Assembly (NCBI RefSeq): GCF_018118585.1
Contig: NZ_CP069421.1
Coordinates: 434,001 to 498,000, forward strand
Direction of reading: 5' to 3'
DNA from: Aristaeella lactis
Lineage (GTDB): Bacteria; Bacillota; Clostridia; Christensenellales; Aristaeellaceae
DNA: 64,000 bases
In this document: positions 4,925-63,660 of the stretch, in pieces
Layout: each line of letters begins with the position of its first letter
Numbering within the stretch: the stretch's first letter is position 1
Translations under genes and position numbers: made by a program
The notes under the pieces: generated by a model
What the model saw: the letters and a program-made list of their open reading frames with translations, nothing else
Database searches by the model: none
What the model was told of the DNA's origin: nothing

Positions 4925-5563
4925 ATGCGTAAAACGCTGTGCGTATGCCTGGTACTTGTTTTGTGCCTTTTCGCGACCGGATATGCTGAAGAAGCGTCGG
5001 TTGATGCTGACACGCTGTTTGGAACGATTGAAAACGGAGCATATGAAAACAAATACGTAGGTCTCGGGTTCAAGATTGATGACTGGCAGATCCTTACGGA
5101 CGAAGATTATGAGCGGATGCGCGAAGCTACAAAAGCTCTTATGCCGGAAGAAATGCAACAATTCAAGGAGAACGCAGGCATTCTTACAGTCCTTCGGGCG
5201 AAGGATCTTCTTAATAATGCCATCAATATCAAAATAAAGTACATTGCTGGAAGCAGCGAGTATACGGAAACAGATACGAAAACGTTAATAAAAAGCAATA
5301 TTGATGATTTTCAGCAATGGCTTCGCGAAACAGGATTTGCCAATGCAGAAGCTGAGTATGTGAGCACAACCATAGAAGGCCGGGAGTATGATGGCATGCT
5401 GGGAAGTTATGATATCCTTACGGTTAATCAGCATATGTACTCCAGACTTATCATGTTTATCCGCGGTGAATACATGGTTATAATCACTGCTTCATCAGTA
5501 ACTGAAGACAGAACAGAGGAAATCTGCCAGCGTTTCTATCATTTGAAGGATTCTGAAGAGTGA
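4925..5563 (+). CDS. Secreted protein of unknown function, paralogue 3
   Basis: A 212-residue protein with signal peptide MRKTLCVCLVLVLCLFATGYA and then the family core GAYENKYVGLGFKIDDWQ. An in-frame ATG two codons upstream sits only 3 bases after AGGAG. The ATG chosen here has a spacing of 9 and fits the other paralogues. The C-terminal third ends in ICQRFYHLK, like IVKNLYHLK in the first gene. Function unknown; exported. It has lower GC than its neighbours and no linker, so it is the shortest family member. Confidence 0.75.
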   Translation: MRKTLCVCLVLVLCLFATGYAEEASVDADTLFGTIENGAYENKYVGLGFKIDDWQILTDEDYERMREATKALMPEEMQQFKENAGILTVLRAKDLLNNAINIKIKYIAGSSEYTETDTKTLIKSNIDDFQQWLRETGFANAEAEYVSTTIEGREYDGMLGSYDILTVNQHMYSRLIMFIRGEYMVIITASSVTEDRTEEICQRFYHLKDSEE

Positions 5564-7264: not shown

Positions 7265-8248
7265 ATGATCTTTGCGGACAAACTGATTGATCTGAGGAAA
7301 AAGAGCGGCTGGTCCCAGGAGGAACTGGCTGAGAAACTGAACGTGAGCCGGCAGGCGGTTTCCAAATGGGAAGGCGCGCAGTCGATCCCGGATATGGCAC
7401 GGATCGTGCAGCTGTCGGAACTGTTCCACGTCAGTACCGATTACCTGCTGAAAGATGAAATGGAGCAGGCGGACGGAACGGAGATCGTACAGGACAGCAG
7501 CGCGGAAGGCCCGGTGAGGACTATCGGGATGGAAGAAGCAAATGCTTTCCTGAAAGTTAAGGAAGAGAACTCCCGGAGGGTGGCCATTGCGGTGATGCTG
7601 TGCATCCTTTCCCCGGTAGCACTGATTCTGCTGGGCGGCGCGCAGTCATACGGCCTGCTGAAGTGGAGCGAGAACGCGGCGGGCGGAATCGGCATGGTCA
7701 TTATGATGCTGATGATCGCTCCGGCAGTAGGGCTGTTCGTTACTTCCGCACAGAAAATCTCCCGCTATGAATACCTGGAGAAAGAACCTGTGGAAACGCT
7801 GTATGGCGTGACGGGTATGGCGCGGGAACGGAAAGAAAGATTCCAGCCAGTTCACAGCCGTTACCTGATCATCGGGATTATGCTGTGCGTGGCATCATGC
7901 ATTCCGCTGTTTCTCAGCCTGATCCTTGGCGATGAATCCTTTATGATGGTGGCAGGGCTTGCGGCGATCCTGGTGCTGACGGCTATCGGTGTGATGATGA
8001 TTGTCCGGGTATCCATCGTCCAGGGAAGCTATCAGATGCTGCTGGAGGAACAGGAATACACCCGGGAAAACAAGGCTAACAACAAGCACTCTGGATACAT
8101 CAGCGCGGCGTACTGGTGCCTGGTGACCGCGGCATACCTGGCATGGAGCTTTATCGGGAACGCGTGGAGGGACTCCTGGATCATCTGGCCGGTGGCGGGC
8201 GTCGCGTTCGGAGCGGTCATGGCGATAAGGAACGCTTTGAAAAAATAA
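7265..8248 (+). CDS. XRE-family regulator with a C-terminal membrane domain
   Basis: A 327-residue protein. Residues 1-65 form a helix-turn-helix of the Cro/CI type (SQEELAEKLNVSRQAVSKWE), followed by a linker and five or so hydrophobic segments from about residue 95 on. The layout is that of membrane-tethered XRE regulators common in Clostridia, which probably sense the envelope state. The start is set by GGAGG nine bases before ATG ATC TTT; an earlier in-frame ATG lacks this. DNA targets unknown. Eight-base arms GAACGCTT/AAGCGTTC bracket the stop codon. Confidence 0.8.
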   Translation: MIFADKLIDLRKKSGWSQEELAEKLNVSRQAVSKWEGAQSIPDMARIVQLSELFHVSTDYLLKDEMEQADGTEIVQDSSAEGPVRTIGMEEANAFLKVKEENSRRVAIAVMLCILSPVALILLGGAQSYGLLKWSENAAGGIGMVIMMLMIAPAVGLFVTSAQKISRYEYLEKEPVETLYGVTGMARERKERFQPVHSRYLIIGIMLCVASCIPLFLSLILGDESFMMVAGLAAILVLTAIGVMMIVRVSIVQGSYQMLLEEQEYTRENKANNKHSGYISAAYWCLVTAAYLAWSFIGNAWRDSWIIWPVAGVAFGAVMAIRNALKK

Positions 8249-8340
8249 AGGGAAGCGTTCAGGTAGGAGGTAGGAAGTAGGAGGCCTACATCAGGTAGGA
8301 GGTAGGAAGTAGGAGGTAGGAAGTGCTATCCGCCTGCGGG
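8249..8340 (+). repeat. GTAGGAG heptamer repeat
   Basis: Two copies of a 25-base block starting CAGGTAGGAGGTAGG begin at 8260 and 8292, and heptamer-like AGGAGGT units continue to about 8322. No coding sequence is visible. Confidence 0.6.
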
Positions 8341-8346
8341 CGGGAA

Positions 8347-8425
8347 CTACTGAAAACTTAAGACTTAAAACTTAAAAATGAATAATGGTGGAGAAAACAG
8401 CGTCTTCGGACGCTGTTTTTTTTTT
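8347..8425 (+). terminator. Terminator cassette 1
   Basis: An ACTTAAA heptamer leader, then AATAATGGTGGAGAAAACAGC, a GTC-TTCG-GAC tip and a T-run of nine or ten. This is one of about 18 copies of the cassette in the window and ends the XRE gene transcript. Confidence 0.8.
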
Positions 8426-11815: not shown

Positions 11816-12250
11816 ATGAGGATTGACATAAAACATGTGGAGACCCCGGAAGAGGAAAGTGCCGTCATCAGCGTGGTGAACGTTACGGACAGCGTCCGGG
11901 GAGCGATTGACCTGCTGGAAAACCAGTGCGCGACCATACCGGTTCAGCATGACGACAAGACCATGATGTGCCGGATCGACCAAATCTACTACATTGAATC
12001 GGTGGACAAGCGCTCGTTTGTGTACACCAAGGCAGGCTGCTATGAAACGAAGTACAGGTTGTATGAGCTGGAAGAGATCCTGAGCAGCCGGTTCCTGCGC
12101 TGCGCCAAGGCAATGATCGTCAACATCCGGAAGATCCGGTCCGTGAAGGGCGAGATAAACGGACGGATGAGGGCGGAACTGCTGAACGGGGAACAGATCG
12201 TGATCTCCCGGGGCTACGTGAAGGAACTGAAGGAAAAGCTGGGGGTGTGA
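11816..12250 (+). CDS. LytTR-type DNA-binding regulator
   Basis: A 144-residue protein whose C-terminal 100 residues form a LytTR DNA-binding domain (IDQIYYIESVDKRSFVYT, FLRCAKAMIVNIRKI, GEQIVISRGYVKELKEKL). It lacks a receiver domain, as is usual for LytTR proteins paired with DUF3021 membrane proteins; the partner follows directly. Only 13 bases separate it from the dehydrogenase gene, so fermentation and this regulator may be linked. Probably binds direct repeats near its own promoter; no target is identified here. Confidence 0.8.
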   Translation: MRIDIKHVETPEEESAVISVVNVTDSVRGAIDLLENQCATIPVQHDDKTMMCRIDQIYYIESVDKRSFVYTKAGCYETKYRLYELEEILSSRFLRCAKAMIVNIRKIRSVKGEINGRMRAELLNGEQIVISRGYVKELKEKLGV

Positions 12251-12252
12251 AC

Positions 12253-12687
12253 ATGAAGAAATGGAAGATCGTATTCAACCAGACGCTGATGATCTCTACG
12301 GGAATCCTGTTCGGCCTGGGTGTGGAAGCGCTGATTGGCCGGCTGTTCGGTAAGGACATGGTCATTGAATGGCCGTGGTACATTCCGCTGTCCATTATCC
12401 TGACCGGTTTCCTGTGCGCGCTGGCGACACTGTTCCTGATTGACAGGGAAGGCGAAAACATCGCAAGCGGAAAAGGACGGATCCTGCTGCATTTCTTTTT
12501 CCTGCTGATCGTGGTGGCAGGATGCGGATGGCTGTTCGGGTGGTATTCAAACCTGACAGAGTTCATTGTGATCGCCGTGATGTATGTGGTGATCTATGCG
12601 TTTGTGTGGATCAGCTCCCTGTGGATGGCAAAGACGGACGAGAAGAAGATTAATGAAGCGATTAGAGACATTCGTGATGATGAATAA
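12253..12687 (+). CDS. DUF3021 family four-helix membrane protein
   Basis: A 145-residue protein with four hydrophobic segments and a short acidic tail, typical of DUF3021 proteins that accompany LytTR regulators. The ATG lies seven bases after GGGGG; the GTG two codons earlier is too close. It probably controls the activity of the preceding LytTR protein at the membrane (inference from gene pairing). The coding end GAGACATTCGTGATGAT is mirrored perfectly after the stop codon, with TAA in the loop. Confidence 0.75.
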   Translation: MKKWKIVFNQTLMISTGILFGLGVEALIGRLFGKDMVIEWPWYIPLSIILTGFLCALATLFLIDREGENIASGKGRILLHFFFLLIVVAGCGWLFGWYSNLTEFIVIAVMYVVIYAFVWISSLWMAKTDEKKINEAIRDIRDDE

Positions 12688-13030
12688 ATCATCACGAATG
12701 TCTCAATGAAATATTTGCCTTCGGCAAATGTGAAATATCGGCTGATGAATCAGCCGATGTGAAATATTGAACGGCAAGCCGTTCAATGTGAAATATGCCC
12801 TCCGGGCATGTGTAAGTTAGTGTGCTTCGCACGTGATATTTGCCGGAGGCAAATATATCAACGCTGCGCTGAGCTTAATGAAAAAACGAAACTGATGAGT
12901 GAACGGAAGGGACGGTTTTCTACGTTTCCAGTAAACTGGAACGAGAGAACTGCCCCTTCCGTTCGCGGTCCTGAGCATAGCTCAGTCCCGTGATCATTCT
13001 GACCAGACATCAGTATTTTCTTTGAATTAT
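12665..13030 (+). repeat. Stop-spanning mirror repeat, hairpin array and long hairpin
   Basis: Starts with 17-base perfect arms (12665-12681, 12688-12704) whose loop GAATAA carries the stop codon. AATGAAATAT follows, then palindromes TTTGCCTTCGGCAAA, CGGCTGATGAATCAGCCG, TGAACGGCAAGCCGTTCA and GCCCTCCGGGC, each set off by TGTGAAATAT. The TGTGCTTCGCACGTGATATT module and a long hairpin with arms GAACGGAAGGG/CCCTTCCGTTC follow. The latter part is a second copy of the region near 6900-7080. No gene. Confidence 0.85.
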
Positions 13031-13095: not shown

Positions 13096-13129
13096 GTGCA
13101 TGTTGGTAAAGGGAAAGTGCATGTTGGTA
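13096..13129 (+). promoter_or_regulatory. Direct repeat upstream of the ABC exporter
   Basis: GTGCATGTTGGTA occurs twice with starts 21 bp apart (13096 and 13117), about 75 bp before the ATP-binding gene. The second copy also begins a GCATG...CATGC hairpin followed by seven T residues, so it may be part of a terminator or attenuator. Confidence 0.4.
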
Positions 13130-23945: not shown

Positions 23946-24407
23946 ATGAAATCAAAGACGCTGCCCAAGGTTGTAGGTGTCATTATCATCGTTGTTGCTG
24001 CCCTGCTGGTGATATTCGGGATATTCTTATATACAGGGCACATGGAACACAACCATGAACAGGGGCATATTGATATAGAACAGGTAGTGACCGATGAAGA
24101 GCATGAATATGTGCTCGATCTCGGATTCAGCTTTGAACTGGAGCACGAGGGCGATCACAGCTTCCCGGTATGGCTGCACGCGGATTCAAGCGTGGCCGTG
24201 ACGGAACTGGAATCAACAATGCCGTGCACGCTGACCTTATACGATAAAGAGGATAAGGAACTCTGGTCTGACCAGATCAAGGCGGGAATGGAAATCACTC
24301 CCGGTGTGGAGGAAGGCGAGTACCGGTTCCAGCTGGTTATGTGCGGAAACGGGAAAGGGAGAATCGTAATTGATGATGGATGCGGGGAGGAGCACGCTAA
24401 TCCTTAA
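23946..24407 (+). CDS. Membrane-anchored exported protein, likely AgrA target
   Basis: A 153-residue protein with one N-terminal transmembrane segment (about 9-30), a His-rich stretch HMEHNHEQGHIDIEQ and an acidic extracellular domain that looks beta-rich (VLDLGFSFELEHEGDHSFPV). No named family. AAAGGAG precedes the ATG. It is divergent from agrA and its promoter carries the paired agr boxes, so it may be induced by the quorum signal. The coding end GCTAATCCTTAA is mirrored perfectly after the stop. Confidence 0.7.
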   Translation: MKSKTLPKVVGVIIIVVAALLVIFGIFLYTGHMEHNHEQGHIDIEQVVTDEEHEYVLDLGFSFELEHEGDHSFPVWLHADSSVAVTELESTMPCTLTLYDKEDKELWSDQIKAGMEITPGVEEGEYRFQLVMCGNGKGRIVIDDGCGEEHANP

Positions 24408-24422
24408 GAGTTAAGGATTAGC
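24396..24422 (+). repeat. Stop-spanning mirror repeat at the end of the agr-linked gene
   Basis: GCTAATCCTTAA (ending in the TAA stop) and TTAAGGATTAGC form perfect 12-base arms with loop GAG. It is not followed by a T-run; GCAATGAAG and a terminator cassette come next. Confidence 0.8.
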
Positions 24423-24423
24423 G

Positions 24424-24498
24424 CAATGAAGAATGAAAAATGAAGAATGAATAATGGTGGATAAAATCGCTCCCGCTGGGAGCGATTTTTCTGAATAA
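24424..24498 (+). terminator. Terminator cassette 5
   Basis: AATGAA-type leader, AATAATGGTGGATAAAATCGC, arms AAAATCGCTCCC and GGGAGCGATTTT, T5. Confidence 0.8.
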
Positions 24499-24556: not shown

Positions 24557-24587
24557 GTAGGAGATCCTTCGACTGCGCTCAGGATGA
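24557..24587 (+). repeat. Short dispersed palindromic repeat
   Basis: GATCCTTCGACTGCGCTCAG plus GATGACA, also found near 45436 in an expanded form. The outer bases pair (ATCCT.. with ..GGAT). The rest of the 24499-24758 gap shows only an AT-rich promoter area with TTGACA at 24664. Confidence 0.6.
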
Positions 24588-24758
24588 CACGATGGCGGGA
24601 GAATATGGTTCCCATGTTTATTTGGGATCGATTCTTTATCCCAGTCGATGGCTTGGTTTCGGATTGACAGTTTTAGGGGAAAGTAATGACAAAAGAGGGG
24701 AAATCGTATATAGTAGGGGCAGAAGAAAAAGATGAAAACTGCAAAGGAGTACGGACAG

Positions 24759-26260: not shown

Positions 26261-27550
26261 ATGAAAAAAATCCTGATTATATTCATAGCGATAATGATGT
26301 TATGTATCTTCGGCGCGGCTGCGGCGGAAGAAGATAATTCAATCATAGGGAAGCCGTTCCCGGATTTCCAGACCATGGATACGGAACGGAATGTGTTTTC
26401 CCTTTCAGAAGCACTGAAGGATCATGAAGCGGTGCTGATCAACCTGTGGGCTTCCTGGTGCGAGCCCTGTGTGCATGAATTCCCGTATCTGAATGAAGCA
26501 TATAACAAGTATAAGGATAAAGTGGCGTTTGTCGGGCTGACGGTTGAACCGGAAGACACCTGGGACATTCTCAGGGATATGAAGAAAGAATACAGCATGG
26601 AATACCCTGTGGCACGGGAAGCGGGAACCAATATCGGCCAGCATCTCGGCGGCGTGCAGGGAACACCGACCACCATTATTGTGGACCGTTTCGGAAACGC
26701 GGTGTACATGCAGGTGATGGCATTTAAGGACAGCGCCGAGATCAGCAGGCTGCTGGACTCATTCCTGGGTGAAAACTATACAGAATCCAGGGCGCTGACA
26801 GAAATTCCGCTGCCGTCTGAAACGCAGGCACTTCCGGTTTCTGACGCACGGAGAATGCGGGTGGAAAATGAAGGCGCAAAGCAAATTACCATCAAGACCC
26901 GCAATACAGATCCTGAATATGATGCCATATATGGAGAACAAACATACACAGGATATGTTGTGACCGATGACACTGCCCGGATCGTTCTGGAGATCAAGGC
27001 TGAGGATAATCTGAAGGATATTGTTTTCTCAGACTATGAAAACAATCAGACTTTCTACATATACTCCCTGCTGGACAAGGAACGGAACGAGTATGTTTAT
27101 GACGATAAGATGGCGGATCACTGGTTCGTTGTTTCCCTGGGGACGCAGACAGGCGACCTGAGTATTGATCCGGACTTCACCGCGATGTACCTGTTCCGGA
27201 ATGAACAGGACATCCAGGAACTGGTTGACTATGGACGGGGAGAGGGGTTTGACGTTACCTGGGAGTACGTGGAGAGTAAGGAACCGGAGACTGCGGAGAA
27301 AGGATCCTATATCCTGCATGTGATTGACCAGAACGGAGAACCCGTGCCCGGGGTGATGGTGAACTTCTGCACGGAGCAGAACTGCACCATGGCAGCCGGT
27401 GATGAAAACGGCGTGATCACGTTTGACGGTGAGAAGGCAGACTACCATGTACAGGTGCTGAAGGTGCCGGAAGGTTACAGCATTGATCCGGAGTTTGAGA
27501 TGCAGACAGGAAACGATAGAGAGTGGATAATATTGGTCCGTAAGGACTAA
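26261..27550 (+). CDS. Secreted TlpA/ResA-like thioredoxin with C-terminal B-like domain, paralogue 2
   Basis: A 429-residue paralogue of the preceding gene with the same order of signal peptide, thioredoxin fold, linker and B-like domain. The active site reads WCEPC (66-70) in place of WCGPC, which may shift its redox potential. AAGGAGG lies eight bases before the ATG. The B-like C-terminus (YILHVIDQNGEPVPGVMVNF) is strongly conserved with its neighbour, whereas the linker domain differs more. Probably separate transcripts, because a terminator cassette lies between. The coding end is mirrored around the stop. Confidence 0.8.
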   Translation: MKKILIIFIAIMMLCIFGAAAAEEDNSIIGKPFPDFQTMDTERNVFSLSEALKDHEAVLINLWASWCEPCVHEFPYLNEAYNKYKDKVAFVGLTVEPEDTWDILRDMKKEYSMEYPVAREAGTNIGQHLGGVQGTPTTIIVDRFGNAVYMQVMAFKDSAEISRLLDSFLGENYTESRALTEIPLPSETQALPVSDARRMRVENEGAKQITIKTRNTDPEYDAIYGEQTYTGYVVTDDTARIVLEIKAEDNLKDIVFSDYENNQTFYIYSLLDKERNEYVYDDKMADHWFVVSLGTQTGDLSIDPDFTAMYLFRNEQDIQELVDYGRGEGFDVTWEYVESKEPETAEKGSYILHVIDQNGEPVPGVMVNFCTEQNCTMAAGDENGVITFDGEKADYHVQVLKVPEGYSIDPEFEMQTGNDREWIILVRKD

Positions 27551-27825
27551 TATTATCCACCTCCAATGAAATATTCGCATTCCGCAACCTCAATCGACGC
27601 ACTGCTTGCTTGGAGCGCTTCGCATTGCTCGTTTCGGTAAGGAAACGCACACGCACCGCGGGCGGAATTCCCGCCTCGCGCACCGCGCGCGACAGGACTC
27701 CAGGTGGCTTCCTGCTACGCAGGATAGCCCACTGGGCTACCGCTTCCTTCGCTCCCCAGCGAATGTGAGATTTACTGTGCTTCGCACGTGATATTTGCTG
27801 ACGCAAATATATAAACGCTGCGCTG
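27523..27825 (+). repeat. Stop-spanning mirror repeat plus GC-rich element, copy 3
   Basis: GTGGATAATATT (27523-27534) and AATATTATCCAC (27549-27560) pair, and GTCC/GGAC pair inside, giving a 17-pair stem (one G-T) that spans the stop codon. AATGAAATAT follows four bases later, then the GC-rich dispersed element and the TGTGCTTCGCACGTGATATT module ending in ACGCTGCGCTGAGC. No gene is supported here. Confidence 0.8.
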
Positions 27826-42765: not shown

Positions 42766-43167
42766 ATGGACATCAGAGAATACCCTGCTTACAGGGAAGA
42801 AGAAATACTGCGGCTTTATTCAGCTGTGGGCTGGAGTGCCTATACCAACGACCCGGCAGCTCTGCAAAAGGGATTTGAACAGTCCCTGCTGGTACTGGCA
42901 GCTTATGAGAATGATAAGCTGGCCGGAATCATCCGGGTTGTAGGCGATGGCGCCACGATCGTATTTGTGCAGGATATCCTGGTTTTTCCGGAATATCAGC
43001 GCAAAGGCATCGGAACGGCCCTGCTGAAAGAGATATTGGCCCGATACAGCCATGTGCGCCAGATTGAACTGACAACGGATTCCACACCGAAGACGATCGC
43101 TTTTTATGAATCCGTTGGATTCAGGAAGATGTCGGACATGGGGTGCGAGGGGTTTATGCGGGCATAG
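42766..43167 (+). CDS. GNAT acetyltransferase
   Basis: A 133-residue GCN5-related N-acetyltransferase. The acetyl-CoA loop is clear in VFPEYQRKGIGTALLKEILARY (around 80-101), followed by ELTTDSTPKTIAFYESVGF. Substrate unknown. It lies 21 bases after the transpeptidase gene, so they may share a transcript. The coding end GGGTTTATGCGG is mirrored after the stop. Confidence 0.8.
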   Translation: MDIREYPAYREEEILRLYSAVGWSAYTNDPAALQKGFEQSLLVLAAYENDKLAGIIRVVGDGATIVFVQDILVFPEYQRKGIGTALLKEILARYSHVRQIELTTDSTPKTIAFYESVGFRKMSDMGCEGFMRA

Positions 43168-43360
43168 CCGCATAAACCCAATGAAATATGTCAAAGCAAT
43201 TATATTGCTTTGACATGTGAAATATTGAACCGCAAGCGGTTCAATGTGAAATATTTGCCTGCGGCAAATGTGAAATGTGGCCTACCGGCCACGTGATATA
43301 TACTGTGCTTCGCACGGGATATTTGCCGGAGGCAAATATGGAGACGCTGTACCGGGTTTA
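43150..43360 (+). repeat. Stop-spanning mirror repeat and hairpin array
   Basis: Arms GGGTTTATGCGG and CCGCATAAACCC (12 bases) with loop GCATAG containing the TAG stop; then AATGAAATATG, a TCAAAGCAA/TTGCTTTGA palindrome, TGTGAAATAT, TTGAACCGCAAGCGGTTCAA, TGTGAAATAT, TTTGCCTGCGGCAAA, TGTGAAATG, a TGGCCTACCGGCCA palindrome and the TGTGCTTCGCAC module. No gene. Confidence 0.85.
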
Positions 43361-44017: not shown

Positions 44018-44722
44018 ATGAAAAAGATCGGGCTGGTGGGCGGAACAGGACCGGAATCTACGCTTATGTATTACAGGGAACTGAATACGAGGATAGACCG
44101 GATGACGGGCGGTAAAGCCATGCCGGACATTGCCATTGAAAGCGTGAATTTCCGCCGGGCCTGGGAATATGTTGAAAAAGGGCAGTATGACCTGCTGGTG
44201 GATTACCTGGCAGAGAAGATCAGCTGCCTGGAGGCAGGAGGCGCGGAAGTGATCTCACTGACTGCCGGAACGATGCATATTGTGATGGATGACCTGCTGA
44301 AGAAGACGAAGGCAGACCTTGTCAGCATTCCCCGGGCAGTGTGCCGGGAGGCACAGCGCAGGGGGTACCGGAGGATCGGCTTGCTGGGGACTATCTTTAC
44401 AATGGAAAAGGACTACATGAAGACGGATCTCCGGGAAGCCGGAATTGAAGTTATCATTCCGGAAAAGGCGGACAGGGAACTGATCGCCAAAAGGATCCTG
44501 GAAGAGCTTGAGAACGGCATTGTAAAGGAATCCACGCTGAATGAATTCCAGGCGATCATCCGGAAAATGCAGGAACAGGACGGTATAGAGGCTGTCGTGC
44601 TGGGATGCACGGAACTGCCGATGATCCTGAATGAGGGAAACTGCCCGGCGGCGGTGCTGGACAGCGTGGAAATACATATTGAAGAGTTGATAAGGATTTC
44701 CATCGGAGATGGAAATCAATGA
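44018..44722 (+). CDS. Aspartate/glutamate racemase family protein
   Basis: A 234-residue protein of the Asp/Glu racemase family (MKKIGLVGGTGPESTLMYYR, VVLGCTELPMIL). The second catalytic Cys is present (197). The first site reads LTAGTMH, so the usual first Cys is Thr 82, as in E. coli YgeA, and the usual Asn of the ANT motif is Gly 84. It may racemise L-amino acids or have another role. Two nested inverted GTTCC/GGAAC sequences lie just upstream (43938-44010), possibly a leader structure. Confidence 0.75.
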   Translation: MKKIGLVGGTGPESTLMYYRELNTRIDRMTGGKAMPDIAIESVNFRRAWEYVEKGQYDLLVDYLAEKISCLEAGGAEVISLTAGTMHIVMDDLLKKTKADLVSIPRAVCREAQRRGYRRIGLLGTIFTMEKDYMKTDLREAGIEVIIPEKADRELIAKRILEELENGIVKESTLNEFQAIIRKMQEQDGIEAVVLGCTELPMILNEGNCPAAVLDSVEIHIEELIRISIGDGNQ

Positions 44723-44830
44723 ATTATTACAAAGCAACGTAGTTGCTTTGTAATATGAATTATCAGCTTACAGCTGATATGAATTATTGGGCATGAAGCC
44801 CAATATGAATTATTCGTCTTCGACGAATGT
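44695..44830 (+). repeat. Mirror repeat at gene end and variant hairpin array
   Basis: GATTTCCATC and GATGGAAATC (10-base arms, loop GGA) end just before AATGAATTAT, which supplies the TGA stop of the racemase gene. Palindromes TACAAAGCAA/TTGCTTTGTA, CAGCTTACAGCTG, TGGGCATGAAGCCCA and TCGTCTTCGACGA follow, separated by ATATGAATTAT. This spacer is a variant of TGTGAAATAT. Confidence 0.85.
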
Positions 44831-44856
44831 TTCAGGCAGTTATGGAAGGAAAAAGG

Positions 44857-45384
44857 ATGATCTATTTTGTGCGGCACGGAGAGACCGTGTGGAATGTGGA
44901 GAACAAGATCTGCGGGGCGACGGACAGTCCTTTGACGGAGCGGGGACACCAACAGGCGATCGAAACGGGTGAAAAGATCCGGGAAAAGGGTATCCACGCG
45001 GATCTGATCCTGTATTCACCGCTATCCCGGGCAAAGGATACGGCGAAGCATATCGCTGAGATCACCGGGATTCCAATGAAGGAAGAACCGAGGCTGTTTG
45101 AACAGCATTTCGGGAAATATGAATCCACACCGCGGAACGGTGAAGAGTTCCGGGAAGCCAAGAAGCAGTTCCTGAACCGCTACGAGGGCGGTGAATCCAT
45201 GTTTCAGCTGGCCCAGAGGGTTTACAACCTGCTGGACGAGCTGAAAGCTGACGGCGGCGATTATATCCTGGTGGCGCATAACGGGATTGCCCGGGTTGTG
45301 CAGTCATATTTTTATGAGATGACGAATGATGAGTATGCCGGGTTTGGGATAGGAAATGGAGAGGTGAGACAGTACAGATTCTAA
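44857..45384 (+). CDS. Histidine phosphatase (phosphoglycerate mutase-like) family protein
   Basis: A 175-residue protein with the phosphatase triad: MIYFVRHGETVWNVENKICG (RHG with catalytic His), SPLSRAKDTAKHIAEITG, EEPRLFEQHFGKYE and VAHNGIARVV. Cytoplasmic; likely dephosphorylates a small phosphate ester. The ATG six bases after GGAAGGA is used; an earlier in-frame ATG lies within the hairpin array. The coding end is mirrored perfectly around its TAA. Confidence 0.85.
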   Translation: MIYFVRHGETVWNVENKICGATDSPLTERGHQQAIETGEKIREKGIHADLILYSPLSRAKDTAKHIAEITGIPMKEEPRLFEQHFGKYESTPRNGEEFREAKKQFLNRYEGGESMFQLAQRVYNLLDELKADGGDYILVAHNGIARVVQSYFYEMTNDEYAGFGIGNGEVRQYRF

Positions 45385-45592
45385 GAATCTGTACTGTCAA
45401 TGAAATATGTCAAAGCAATATAATTGCTTTGACATGAGATCCTTCGACTGCGCTCTCTTCGCACCGCTTGCTCAGGATGACACTTTCTAAGGAAGCAAAT
45501 GTGAAATGTGGCCTGCCGGCCACGTGAAAGTAAGTGTTGCTGTCGCAACGGGATATTTGCTGACGCAAATATAGAGACGCTGCGCTGGGCTT
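45368..45592 (+). repeat. Stop-centred mirror repeat and mixed repeat array
   Basis: GACAGTACAGATTC and GAATCTGTACTGTC form 14-base arms whose three-base loop is exactly the stop codon TAA. Then come AATGAAATATG, a TCAAAGCAAT palindrome, a GATCCTTCGACTGCGCTC-type repeat, the TGGCCTGCCGGCCA palindrome and the ACGCTGCGCTGGGC tail. No gene. Confidence 0.85.
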
Positions 45593-57945: not shown

Positions 57946-58306
57946 AAGCCTGCCGAACGGCAGGCTTGAGTGAAAAGTGAAGTGCGATCGCTGTGTTCCG
58001 CAATCTCAATGGTCGTAACTCCACACTGTGGAGATTACTCCCTTTCGATTGACCTCAGATCCGATGAGATTTCCGCCACTGGCGGTCATCGGCTCTTCGC
58101 CCAAAGCTCTGTTCGCTAACGCTCCAGACCTTTGACAGCTGTAGCATGGGAGGCATTCGCATCGAATGGCTCGGTGTTACCAATGCTAAAGCATTGACAC
58201 CTGCATGGACGATCTGTTATCAGTGCTGAAGCACTGACAGATCAGTCTAAAGCGCTGATGCCTCCTCAACTGAAGAGTTGATCAAAATGATTAAGCATTT
58301 TGATCA
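57946..58306 (-). repeat. Terminator and hairpin array after the BceB-like gene
   Basis: Read on the minus strand from the gene end: TGATCAAAATG and CATTTTGATCA (11-base arms) enclose the TAA stop. Then come CAACT-CTTC-AGTTG and palindromes TCAGTGCTTCAGCACTGA and AATGCTTTAGCATT, other paired segments and finally the terminator AAGCCTGCC-GTTC-GGCAGGCTT with a T-rich tail (57946-57967). No gene. Confidence 0.75.
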
Positions 58307-60351
58307 GTGGCACCACTGACGATGCGGTAGTAGATACCGGAGGTCAGGACGTAGACGATGCCGTAGAAGATGGCAAAGACTACGAAGCTGATGATGGTGG
58401 TGCGCATGAAGAGGTCAACGTTCGTCAGATGGAGGAGGGCCAGCATCTTCCGGATCATCGGGAAGGCAAAGATGAGATGCATACCGGCGAAGATCATCGG
58501 AAGGGCGAAGACTGTCAGCAGCTGGGAGCTGATGCTGGAACGGATCTCCTTCTTTGTCATACCAACCTTCTGCATGATATCAAAGCGTTTGGCATCTTCA
58601 TAGCCTTCGGAGATCTGCTTGTAGTAGATGATCAGCACAGCGGCGAAGACGAAGACGATGCTGAGCAGGATGCCGATGAAGAAGAGACTGCCGTATGTGC
58701 CATAGAAATCAGCGGAACCTTCGGCGCGGGTATCTATGGATATCCATCTGGTGGCATCTTCCGTGAAGAGGTTATTGAGATCAGGCCTGACGTTCTTACT
58801 CAGGGTTACATGCAGGTCTGTATTCTCAGCATCGGACAGGCCGGTGTCAAAGCTGTAATACCACTGGGACTGGAACTTCATGCGGCCTTCATCGTCAGCT
58901 TCTTCCAGACCACTGACCGCGGCGGCCAGGTCGGCCACGGCAACGGTCATGGTCGGAAAGCCCATAGAGGAAGTATCTCCGTTGGTATCATTCCGTTCAT
59001 AATGCCGGATCTTCCAACTGCGGGTCTTTTCACCCATGGCCAGGGTCAGGGTATCATCGGTATAGTCCATGCCGTCTGTGATTACCACAACTTCATCAGC
59101 AGCCAGATCCAGGAGACTGTTGTCCGAAGTTTCAATGGAATCGGCAGGCACCATGTAGATCTCCAGCAGGGAGTTGAAATCGGCTCCCATGCTTGCGGTT
59201 TCATAATCGCACTGGATCAAACCGTCTTTCCGGACACCGCTCAGGTCGATCAGCTTCTGCTCCCGGATGTTCTTCGGGGCAATACCGTTTTTCTGAAGCT
59301 CATCCAGGATCATGGAAGCAGCCTTGTCCGGTGTGCCGTCTGTCAGCTTTTCGGGATTGTTCAGGTTGGCAGTGAAGTTGATCTCACGGGGGAAGGTTTT
59401 TCTGAGGGAATCTTCCGCGCCGAACCACATACAGGTGGTGGTGGAAAGCATGACCAGGATCATCGTGGCGATGATGCAGATGGAGGCCAGGCCGGCACCG
59501 TTCCGTTTCATACGGAAAGCCATGGAAGAAACCGAGACAAAGTGCTTTGCTTTGTAATAGTAGCCTTTATTTGACTGCAGGATGCGGCACAGCTTTACGC
59601 TGCCTGTGACAAGCAGAAGATAGGTGGCCAGGATGACCATGAGCACAGCAACGAAGAACAGCAGGATCGCGGTAACCGGGTTTTTGACGGTGATGGCGAT
59701 ATAGTAAGCGCCGCCCAGAATGAGCACACCCAGGATCGCAAACAGCCAGTTGCCCTTCGGGGGCTTCTCACCGGCATTCTCGGTCTTCATCAGGGAAACT
59801 GCATTGGCACGGACGGTCCGGATGACCGCGGACAGCATGAGCAGGCCAAAGATAATGGCATAGAACAGGACCGTCTGCCAGATCGCGGTTGAATCAACGC
59901 GGAAAACGAAGTCGATGGTGCCTCCCAGCAGGTTGACCAGTCCGAGTTCCGCCAGCTTGGACAGGAGAATACCCAGGAACAGGCCGCAGGTCATGGCAAT
60001 AGCAAAGGTGATGACATTCTCCCAGGTAATGATACGAACCAGGTTCCGTTTGCCCATGCCCAGCACGTTATACAGGCCGAATTCACGGGAACGGCGGCGA
60101 AGCAGGAACGAATAGGTGTAATACAGGAAGATCAGGGAAAAGGCCATGATGACATACCGGCCAAGGTTCATGATTTCGAAAACGATGCTGGCACCTACCG
60201 GTATCAGGGGAAGCACTATCGGAGAAGCCAGGAAGGACAGGATGTAGAACACAGCGACCATGCAGACGCAGGTCAGCAGATAGGGCCTGGAGAGCTGACG
60301 GTTTTTCCGCAGACCCTCCCAGGCCAGGCGGGGATAGAAGAGCTTCTTCAC
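58291..60351 (-). CDS. bceB: BceB-type ABC transporter permease (FtsX family)
   Basis: A 686-residue protein with about ten helices and a large extracellular domain (about 315-555) between helices, the layout of BceB/VraG permeases that detect and remove bacitracin or other peptides from lipid carriers. Conserved pieces: RSREFGLYNVLGMGKRNLVR near the first helices and EDAKRFDIMQKVGMTKKEIR near the end. The start overlaps the ATPase stop by four bases. Works with the BceS kinase encoded upstream. Confidence 0.88.
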   Translation of the reverse strand: MKKLFYPRLAWEGLRKNRQLSRPYLLTCVCMVAVFYILSFLASPIVLPLIPVGASIVFEIMNLGRYVIMAFSLIFLYYTYSFLLRRRSREFGLYNVLGMGKRNLVRIITWENVITFAIAMTCGLFLGILLSKLAELGLVNLLGGTIDFVFRVDSTAIWQTVLFYAIIFGLLMLSAVIRTVRANAVSLMKTENAGEKPPKGNWLFAILGVLILGGAYYIAITVKNPVTAILLFFVAVLMVILATYLLLVTGSVKLCRILQSNKGYYYKAKHFVSVSSMAFRMKRNGAGLASICIIATMILVMLSTTTCMWFGAEDSLRKTFPREINFTANLNNPEKLTDGTPDKAASMILDELQKNGIAPKNIREQKLIDLSGVRKDGLIQCDYETASMGADFNSLLEIYMVPADSIETSDNSLLDLAADEVVVITDGMDYTDDTLTLAMGEKTRSWKIRHYERNDTNGDTSSMGFPTMTVAVADLAAAVSGLEEADDEGRMKFQSQWYYSFDTGLSDAENTDLHVTLSKNVRPDLNNLFTEDATRWISIDTRAEGSADFYGTYGSLFFIGILLSIVFVFAAVLIIYYKQISEGYEDAKRFDIMQKVGMTKKEIRSSISSQLLTVFALPMIFAGMHLIFAFPMIRKMLALLHLTNVDLFMRTTIISFVVFAIFYGIVYVLTSGIYYRIVSGATDQNA

Positions 60352-63072: not shown

Positions 63073-63660
63073 ATGAAGACCTCTCTGGCACGGTCCGCGG
63101 CAGCGGGTATCCTGATCTGTATGGGATGTATTGTGAATCTCAAAGTCGGCGGCGGTATACCGGGAGCGGTGCTCTTCAGCGCGGGCCTCTGGTTCGTTGT
63201 CAACTTTGACGCGGAACTGTTCACCGGACGTGTGGCCCGGGATGACTACAATCCCCTGCAGAAGCTGATCATGCTGGTGATGAACGTGATCGGCGGAGGT
63301 ATATGCGGCTACCTGGCCTCCCTTTTCCTGCCGGAGATCCGGGAAGCTGCACAGAAGATCGCCGCGGGATACCAGGATCCGGTCAAGGTAATCTGGCAGT
63401 CCGTGATGTGCGGTATCTGTATGTATCTGGCAACCACCCAACCGAAGAACAAGGATATCAGCCGCCTGCCTTTTGTGGTGTACGGCGTGGCGCTGTTCAT
63501 CCTTTCCTCCTATGCCCACTCCATCGCCCTGGCCGGATACGCGGCCATCGCCCAGGGAATTGCCTGGTGGGTGATCCCGCTGGCGGCAGTGGGAAACGGA
63601 ATAGGGAGTTATCTGATCAGATTCCTTCTGACATGGCAGAAGAAATCTGATCAGAAATGA
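63073..63660 (+). CDS. Short formate/nitrite transporter (FNT) family protein
   Basis: A 195-residue membrane protein with five or six helices. GGGIPGAVLFSAGLWFVVNF and DAELFTGRV match the FNT pattern, but the protein is shorter than usual for FNT channels (about 250-280). AGGAGG lies nine bases before the ATG used; an ATG directly after the site is too close. Likely passes a small anion such as formate. Its last codons lie in an inverted repeat (arms TCTGATCAGATT and AATCTGATCAGA) before AATGAATAATG. Confidence 0.7.
   Translation: MKTSLARSAAAGILICMGCIVNLKVGGGIPGAVLFSAGLWFVVNFDAELFTGRVARDDYNPLQKLIMLVMNVIGGGICGYLASLFLPEIREAAQKIAAGYQDPVKVIWQSVMCGICMYLATTQPKNKDISRLPFVVYGVALFILSSYAHSIALAGYAAIAQGIAWWVIPLAAVGNGIGSYLIRFLLTWQKKSDQK

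Follow-up and report, generated by a model that had tools for sequence, protein, structure and literature searches.

Gene-specific hairpins at the ends of coding sequences in Aristaeella lactis and its relatives

Results

Hairpins at gene ends in the window

The window, as we call the whole 64,000-nucleotide stretch of Aristaeella lactis DNA analysed here (G000:C1:434001-498000), is part of a genome of 3.45 Mb in two contigs (G000), and the relatives compared with it are designated G001, G004, G007, G022, G035 and G037. A preliminary description had listed eight places in the window at which the end of a gene seemed to be mirrored around its own stop codon. The arms of all eight repeats were compared base by base against the ends of the open reading frames (ORFs), and clear inverted repeats were found in seven; the remaining one, at 8230-8260, is weak, as had been said of it, and stayed unscored because its 15-base loop exceeds the 14-base limit of the stem scan. 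A further, ninth case at 63612-63655 was absent from that list (Table 1).

Table 1 Gene-end stems and adjoining cassettes in the window
Position	Strand	Feature	Gene or context
8230-8260		8 bp arms around a 15-base loop, weak	base-by-base check
12665-12704	+	17 bp perfect stem, loop GAATAA	end of DUF3021 gene 12247-12687
12705-12876	+	hairpin-array cassette, begins AATGAAATAT, linkers TGTGAAATAT	adjoins 12665 stem
24395-24423	+	13 bp stem, left arm ends in TAA	gene 23946-24407
24425-24457	+	AATGAAN heptad cassette, then terminator-like hairpin	3′ of 24395 stem
27523-27560	+	17-pair stem (16 Watson-Crick and one G-T), stop in right arm	end of redoxin-like gene at 27550
43150-43179	+	12 bp stem, loop GCATAG (TAG stop)	GNAT gene 42766-43167
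44695-44717	+	10 bp hairpin within last codons; stop 44720-44722 from following AATGA	Asp/Glu racemase-family gene (start 44018)
45368-45398	+	14 bp stem, loop exactly TAA	histidine-phosphatase gene 44827-45384
58279-58306	-	11 bp stem, TAA in loop, without AATGAA	FtsX-domain gene 58291-60351
63612-63655	+	18 of 19 pairs, wholly in ORF; AATGAATAATG then supplies stop	formate/nitrite transporter-family ORF ending at 63660

The stem at 12665, where the last 17 coding bases had been said to be mirrored around a six-base loop with TAA, and those at 43150, 45368 and 58279 were found as described, each with its stop codon in the loop. Three others needed correction. The repeat given as 12 bp at 24396-24422 exists, but its arms are 13 bp and the TAA ends the left one; the 17 pairs with one G-T at 27523 were confirmed, but the stop codon lies in the right arm and not in the loop; and the 10 bp repeat at 44695 is present but lies wholly inside the ORF, so that the stop follows the hairpin, as it also does at 63612. 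Given that the position of the stop varies in this way, the wording "mirrored around the stop" leaves some of the cases out, and "hairpin at the gene end" fits them all. An Rfam search of the window returned no matches.

Frequency and position of gene-end stems

The sample from G000 consisted of the window and 40 stretches of 20 kb (864 kb, about 25% of the genome). Genes were called using a simple hexamer model, and 716 of the 720 called gene ends were tested, the four at stretch ends being dropped. About a quarter of each of two relatives, G022 and G035, was also sampled (800 kb each). Stop-spanning stems with a score of at least 10 were found at 19 of the 716 ends, and with a score of at least 12 at 14. 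When the coding ends were paired with the downstream DNA of other genes in 20 rounds of swapping, the corresponding means were 0.2 and 0 (maxima 1 and 0), and none of 642 pseudo-stops placed 150 nt upstream scored 9 or more. In the relatives, 24 of 693 ends (G022) and 31 of 701 ends (G035) scored at least 11, against swap means of 3.4 and 5.6, which are probably raised by heptads pairing with heptads. The excess over controls expected from the preliminary description was thus found in G000, with agreement from both relatives. In these gut bacteria of rumen type, about one gene in thirty (~3% of gene ends) has such a stem, a long and almost perfect hairpin in which the final codons usually pair with DNA directly 3′ of the stop.

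Perfect hairpins with arms of at least 10 bases spanned stop codons in 22 cases and start codons in none, while 157 were intergenic and 15 lay inside genes, at least six of the latter being gene ends that adjoin a cassette. The density at stops (22 of 720) is roughly that of intergenic DNA, in which about 4% would be expected at a random site, the intergenic set including terminators. A profile along genes was drawn for those followed by a gap of at least 100 (264 in G000 and 592 in G022 and G035 together). Non-terminator perfect hairpins numbered 0 at -200 to -41 relative to the stop, 2 at -40 to -21, 13 at -20 to -1 and 11 at 0 to 19 in G000, and 2 at -200 to -41, 20 at -20 to -1 and 14 at 0 to 19 in G022 and G035. 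They start at about -20 and are densest from -20 to +39; beyond +40 they drop in G000 and rise again at +60 to +99 in G022 and G035. Terminators peak at +20 to +39, whereas gene-end stems lie mostly at -20 to +19. No association was found between the presence of a stem and the strand of the next gene.

The gene-end class accounted for 22 of the 718 ends counted in G000 and for 50 of the 1,394 in G022 and G035 (stem totals vary slightly between these counts and the border counts below because the T-run filters differ). Elsewhere, stems were found at 3 of 106 ends in loci L073-L090, two of the three being in L075 (G001). Members of the genus that fall outside the array clade, represented by 24 loci, had stems at 2 of 89 ends, and other clostridia, represented by 61 loci (L091-L151), at 2 of 368. 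The class is therefore enriched in the clade and not confined to it. Among the 61 loci, L142, from a Lachnospiraceae member of the dairy cattle rectum, has a similar 18 bp stem with the loop TAA.

Divergence of arms and paired changes

The divergence of 36 homologous gene-end stems was compared between G022 and G035, with two gene-end and 15 terminator stems set aside. The left arms differed at 25 of 487 positions (5.1%) and the right arms at 25 of 483 (5.2%), against 22 of 166 (13.3%) for the loops of the same stems. Four-fold degenerate sites differed at 5355 of 42119 positions (12.7%); within the last 20 codons of genes the figure was 10.3%. Among terminators, the arms were 3.3-3.8% and the loops 15% diverged. 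Alignable 3′ DNA outside stems was 5.9% diverged, near the level of the arms, but since this set includes downstream coding DNA, loops and four-fold sites are the fairer yardsticks.

Changed pairs were counted between orthologues in both directions, after the alignment filters had removed 11 gene-end and 26 terminator stems. Among gene-end stems, 8 pairs were matched changes, 16 became G-T, 9 A-C and 15 other mismatches, and 4 were doubly changed without pairing, so that 40 one-sided changes stand against 8 matched ones; terminators gave 14, 22, 13, 21 and 2, respectively. Judged by these counts, including the G-T to A-C ratio (16:9 against 22:13), gene-end stems and terminators evolve alike between orthologues. 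Mismatches within genomes were counted at inner pairs only, since the T-run of terminators could confound a count of all pairs. Here the terminators had 73 G-T, 22 A-C and 28 other mismatches at a score of at least 8 (36:14:17 at 10 or more), and the gene-end stems 15:12:27 (14:10:16). Terminators thus have the surplus of G-T over A-C expected of RNA, which is not clear in gene-end stems, a pattern that differs from the ratio between orthologues. Given that the arms can change together between species, the coding end and the region 3′ of the stop behave as one unit.

Stems at orthologous gene ends

The stem of the DUF3021 gene has identical arms in G000 and G004, and is followed by the hairpin array in the former and by heptads and a terminator in the latter. 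Likewise, the arms at the racemase-family gene (44018) are kept in a relative despite a different cassette. The GNAT gene end has a palindromic version in G004, with TAA in the right arm. At the histidine-phosphatase gene, two synonymous coding changes separate G000 from G004, and both are matched in the right arm; G022 and G035 have a common stem that is different from that of G000. Of 80 orthologue loci inspected for this gene, five scored at least 8, namely L072 (G004), L074, L075 (G001) and, more weakly, L100 and L151.

A gene identified as RelA/SpoT by Pfam carries the same stem in G022, G001 and G004, from which G035 differs by three synonymous changes, all three matched in the far arm. 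At this gene end the stem of G007 is 18 bp long and set in a different register, and the hairpin of G000 lies almost wholly 3′ of the stop. A comparable non-terminator stem was found in none of 24 further genus members (L295-L318, in two of which an alternative stop was used); the hairpin of G037 spans the stop and is terminator-like. The stem at the end of a DnaJ-domain gene is kept, with matched changes, by G035, G001 and G000 (one G-T in G000), and is absent from G022 and G007. Stems without a cassette were seen at this gene in G000, in L074 and at the DUF3021 gene of G007. Where a G000 gene had a stem, its G035 orthologue had one in 5 of 13 cases, compared with 12 of 126 otherwise (p 0.011), the arms differing in four of the five; the corresponding test of G000 and G022 gave p 0.065.

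Gain and loss between close relatives

Among 545 orthologue pairs of G022 and G035, the stem was present in both in 29, in one in 18 and in neither in 498. The last 30 coding nucleotides were 92.8%, 74.4% and 93.7% identical in these three groups, and the gene bodies 93.7%, 92.1% and 94.1%. Nine of the 18 differing pairs were near the score limit or reflected a filter effect, and the other nine were clear. In the clear pairs the last 30 coding nucleotides were 70.7% identical and the bodies 93.4% (p 5e-6 and 0.49 against the 498 stemless pairs). Six of the nine coding ends had been rewritten (identity at most 0.77), sometimes conservatively (DAKIN/DSRMN) and sometimes not, and three were little changed (0.83-0.90). 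G000 or G001 shares the G035 stem at these three, which suggests loss or replacement in G022. A TAGGAGG-type cassette in G022 takes the place of a stem present in G035 and G000.

That the coding ends diverged where stem status differs argues against a far arm copied from an unchanged coding end, and the comparison fits a replacement of gene ends as blocks, as read from sequences in which few events could be dated. The preliminary description had suggested that an element copies the adjacent coding end in reverse. As a general explanation this lacks support, because stems are shared across different or absent cassettes and because six of the nine coding ends were rewritten. In the comparison of orthologues that it proposed, the same stem does occur beside different cassettes, and an unchanged left arm (relative to a stemless sister) beside a new right arm and cassette was not the pattern of the nine clear pairs among the 18 that differ.

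Cassettes at the right border

AATGAA follows the right arm by 0-4 bases in six of the eight listed cases, 58279 and 8230 being the exceptions. More generally, 13 of 23 stems of G000 have an AATGA that starts 0-5 nt beyond their right arm, compared with 62 of 1,915 control positions, as do 18 of 56 stems of G022 and G035, compared with 105 of 4,075, so that its frequent presence at this border, as first reported for the window, was upheld. Elsewhere the stem leads into a different heptad, such as the ACTCTTC types of reverse sense, and either orientation adjoins stems. In G000, 18 of 21 stem genes and 50 of 247 others had a cassette motif no more than 70 nt away; in G022 and G035 the counts were 30 of 36 and 149 of 587, respectively. 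The arms are gene-specific, with all 19 scored stems different, which agrees with the earlier view that no shared mobile sequence explains them. The cassette is a separate neighbour of the stem and changes faster.

Discussion

We propose, with a probability of about one half, that these gene-specific 3′-end hairpins are kept by selection for pairing, probably at the RNA level, where they would set or shield the 3′ ends of mRNAs, and are renewed by template switching or recombination. The last codons would supply one arm, sometimes both, and selection would keep the arms complementary, so that a change in one could be answered by a change in its partner. The mRNA is the most likely place of action: there the hairpin would block 3′-to-5′ exonucleases at the end of the coding sequence, much as the galE hairpin discussed below does, standing ahead of an AU-rich 3′ region of heptads or spaced hairpin arrays; perhaps it also slows the last ribosome at the coding end. 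We lean to the RNA over the DNA level because the stems sit at stops and not at starts. Template switching in replication, or recombination with diverged relatives, would create and refresh the stems, often as blocks, with AATGA-type cassettes coming and going at the outer foot. Template switching is a likely source of the perfect stems and may explain the clustered matched changes. The strong selection for gene-specific 3′ stems suggested in the preliminary description is favoured by the constraint on the arms, the matched changes, the onset at the stop, and the re-occurrence of stems at orthologous genes, mostly with different arms.

The stems could instead be mainly a product of mutation, in which fold-back template switching in replication copies one arm and the result is tolerated only at gene ends, no RNA function being needed. 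We regard this as a possible but less probable reading. It accounts well for the long perfect arms, for several matched changes clustered in one stem (three in the RelA/SpoT gene) and for the lack of a clear wobble excess within genomes in gene-end stems, and a route for making and repairing stems in this way is described in PMC8794818. Yet non-terminator hairpins are densest near the stop and not even along 3′ regions, stems last across species at the DnaJ-domain and RelA/SpoT ends, the left-arm region was also rewritten in six of the nine clear differing cases, and one-sided changes outnumber matched ones. A version in which fold-back at the DNA level repeatedly writes the coding end into the flank and back, so that the last codons are continually rewritten, cassettes are joined at the foot and protein C-termini are altered in a concerted evolution of codons and 3′ flank, seems slightly less probable again.

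Another alternative is that the hairpin is introduced or generated by an intergenic cassette, mobile or recombining, that inserts near the end of the gene, replaces the last codons and often supplies the stop. The abutting AATGA, the cassette motifs near most stem genes, the hairpins inside ORFs with a cassette-supplied stop (44695, 63612 and further cases) and the low identity of the last 30 coding nucleotides in the nine clear cases would all follow from it. We consider it unlikely, since the same stem occurs with different cassettes and some stems have none, the recoding is synonymous or conservative at several ends, heptads of either orientation adjoin stems, and the arms are unique to each gene.

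That the stems are ordinary intrinsic terminators overlapping the stop codon is quite improbable. Terminator-like stop-spanning hairpins do exist (three in G000 and eight in G022 and G035, in addition to examples such as the RelA/SpoT gene of G037), but a T-run after the right arm is absent in 22 of 25 stems in G000 and 50 of 58 in G022 and G035, for which reason we rejected this reading for most stems, and the positions of the two classes differ as described above. In a comparison of stems with terminators farther downstream, the terminator detector was too strict, finding 42 among 268 G000 genes, and its result carries no weight here. A relative of Rho was found in G000 (2.7e-122, below the curated cut-off). 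Chance inverted repeats could account for the unscored case at 8230, but for the set they are refuted by the swaps, the pseudo-stops, the repetition in two genomes and the constraint on the arms.

In E. coli, a hairpin near the end of galE is described as defining the processed mRNA 3′ end without being itself a terminator (PMC11925234); the stems here are alike in standing near gene ends and mostly not being terminators, but there are many per genome, their arms include the last codons, and many abut AATGA cassettes. REP palindromes within 15 nt of the stop are cited as stalling ribosomes (PMC12306157). The stems here also lie within 15 nt, by the choice of the class, with the density peak given above, but where REPs have a consensus, the arms here are unique per gene (19 of 19 scored stems differ) and use the codons of the gene. 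Template-switch hairpins with perfect stems and multi-base matched changes are described for RNA genes in PMC8794818, and both features recur here, but with one arm protein-coding. Stem-loops spanning gene borders have been surveyed in prokaryotes, with many near stops in low-GC firmicutes (PMC1590033); gene-specific perfect stems with matched coding changes, as seen here, do not appear in the available portion of that survey. Our literature search turned up no paper on stop-spanning gene-specific stems, though such papers may exist.

If the preferred reading is right, pairing with the 3′ flank would dictate which codons are used at the ends of many genes, and the constraint on synonymous sites there would be both visible and testable. 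The paired arms would also offer a natural test of whether compensatory changes arise stepwise through selection or in a single template-switching event.

Several repeats were seen beside the stems. The arrays at 12705-12876, 43180-43345 and 45399-45560 consist of different short hairpins with a constant linker (AATGAAATAT, then TGTGAAATAT). This pattern of two linkers was matched at 20 places in G000 and is present in 6 of 41 genus genomes, with no match to the reversed control; 13 of the G000 arrays lie on the + strand (<0.56 Mb and >2.9 Mb) and seven on the - strand (1.07-2.34 Mb), which may hint at a link with the direction of replication or of genes. An intergenic repeat GATCCTTCGACTGCGCTC...AGGATGACA was found at 24563-24590 and 45437-45484, and GTGCATGTTGGTA stands twice, 21 bases apart, at 13096-13129, downstream of the 12665 array, as well as twice in G004. 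In G022, a recurring insert TTGCGATCGCCGT..., which contains the palindrome GCGATCGC, lies beside gene-end stems or heptads (L212, L213, L218, L269 and L271). Cassettes of the TAGGAGG/TAGGAAG type stand 3′ of gene ends at 8250-8350 of the window and near 167897 of G022c.

Tandem 7-base repeats were observed in the window at 24425, 28913, 29643 and 54599 and in 111 regions of the 864 kb, 12 of them inside called genes. TAACTGA heptamers, as described in PMC4679880, are likewise repeated in tandem, carry stops in every frame and in some cases overlap the upstream gene's stop codon, but they mostly precede start codons; the tandem 7-mers here come in many variants, often beside gene ends and stems. 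The variants include AATGAAC/AATTAAC, ACTTAAA/ACTGAAA, AATTCAG and AGTGAAG; many lie near gene 3′ ends, and some give the stop codon.
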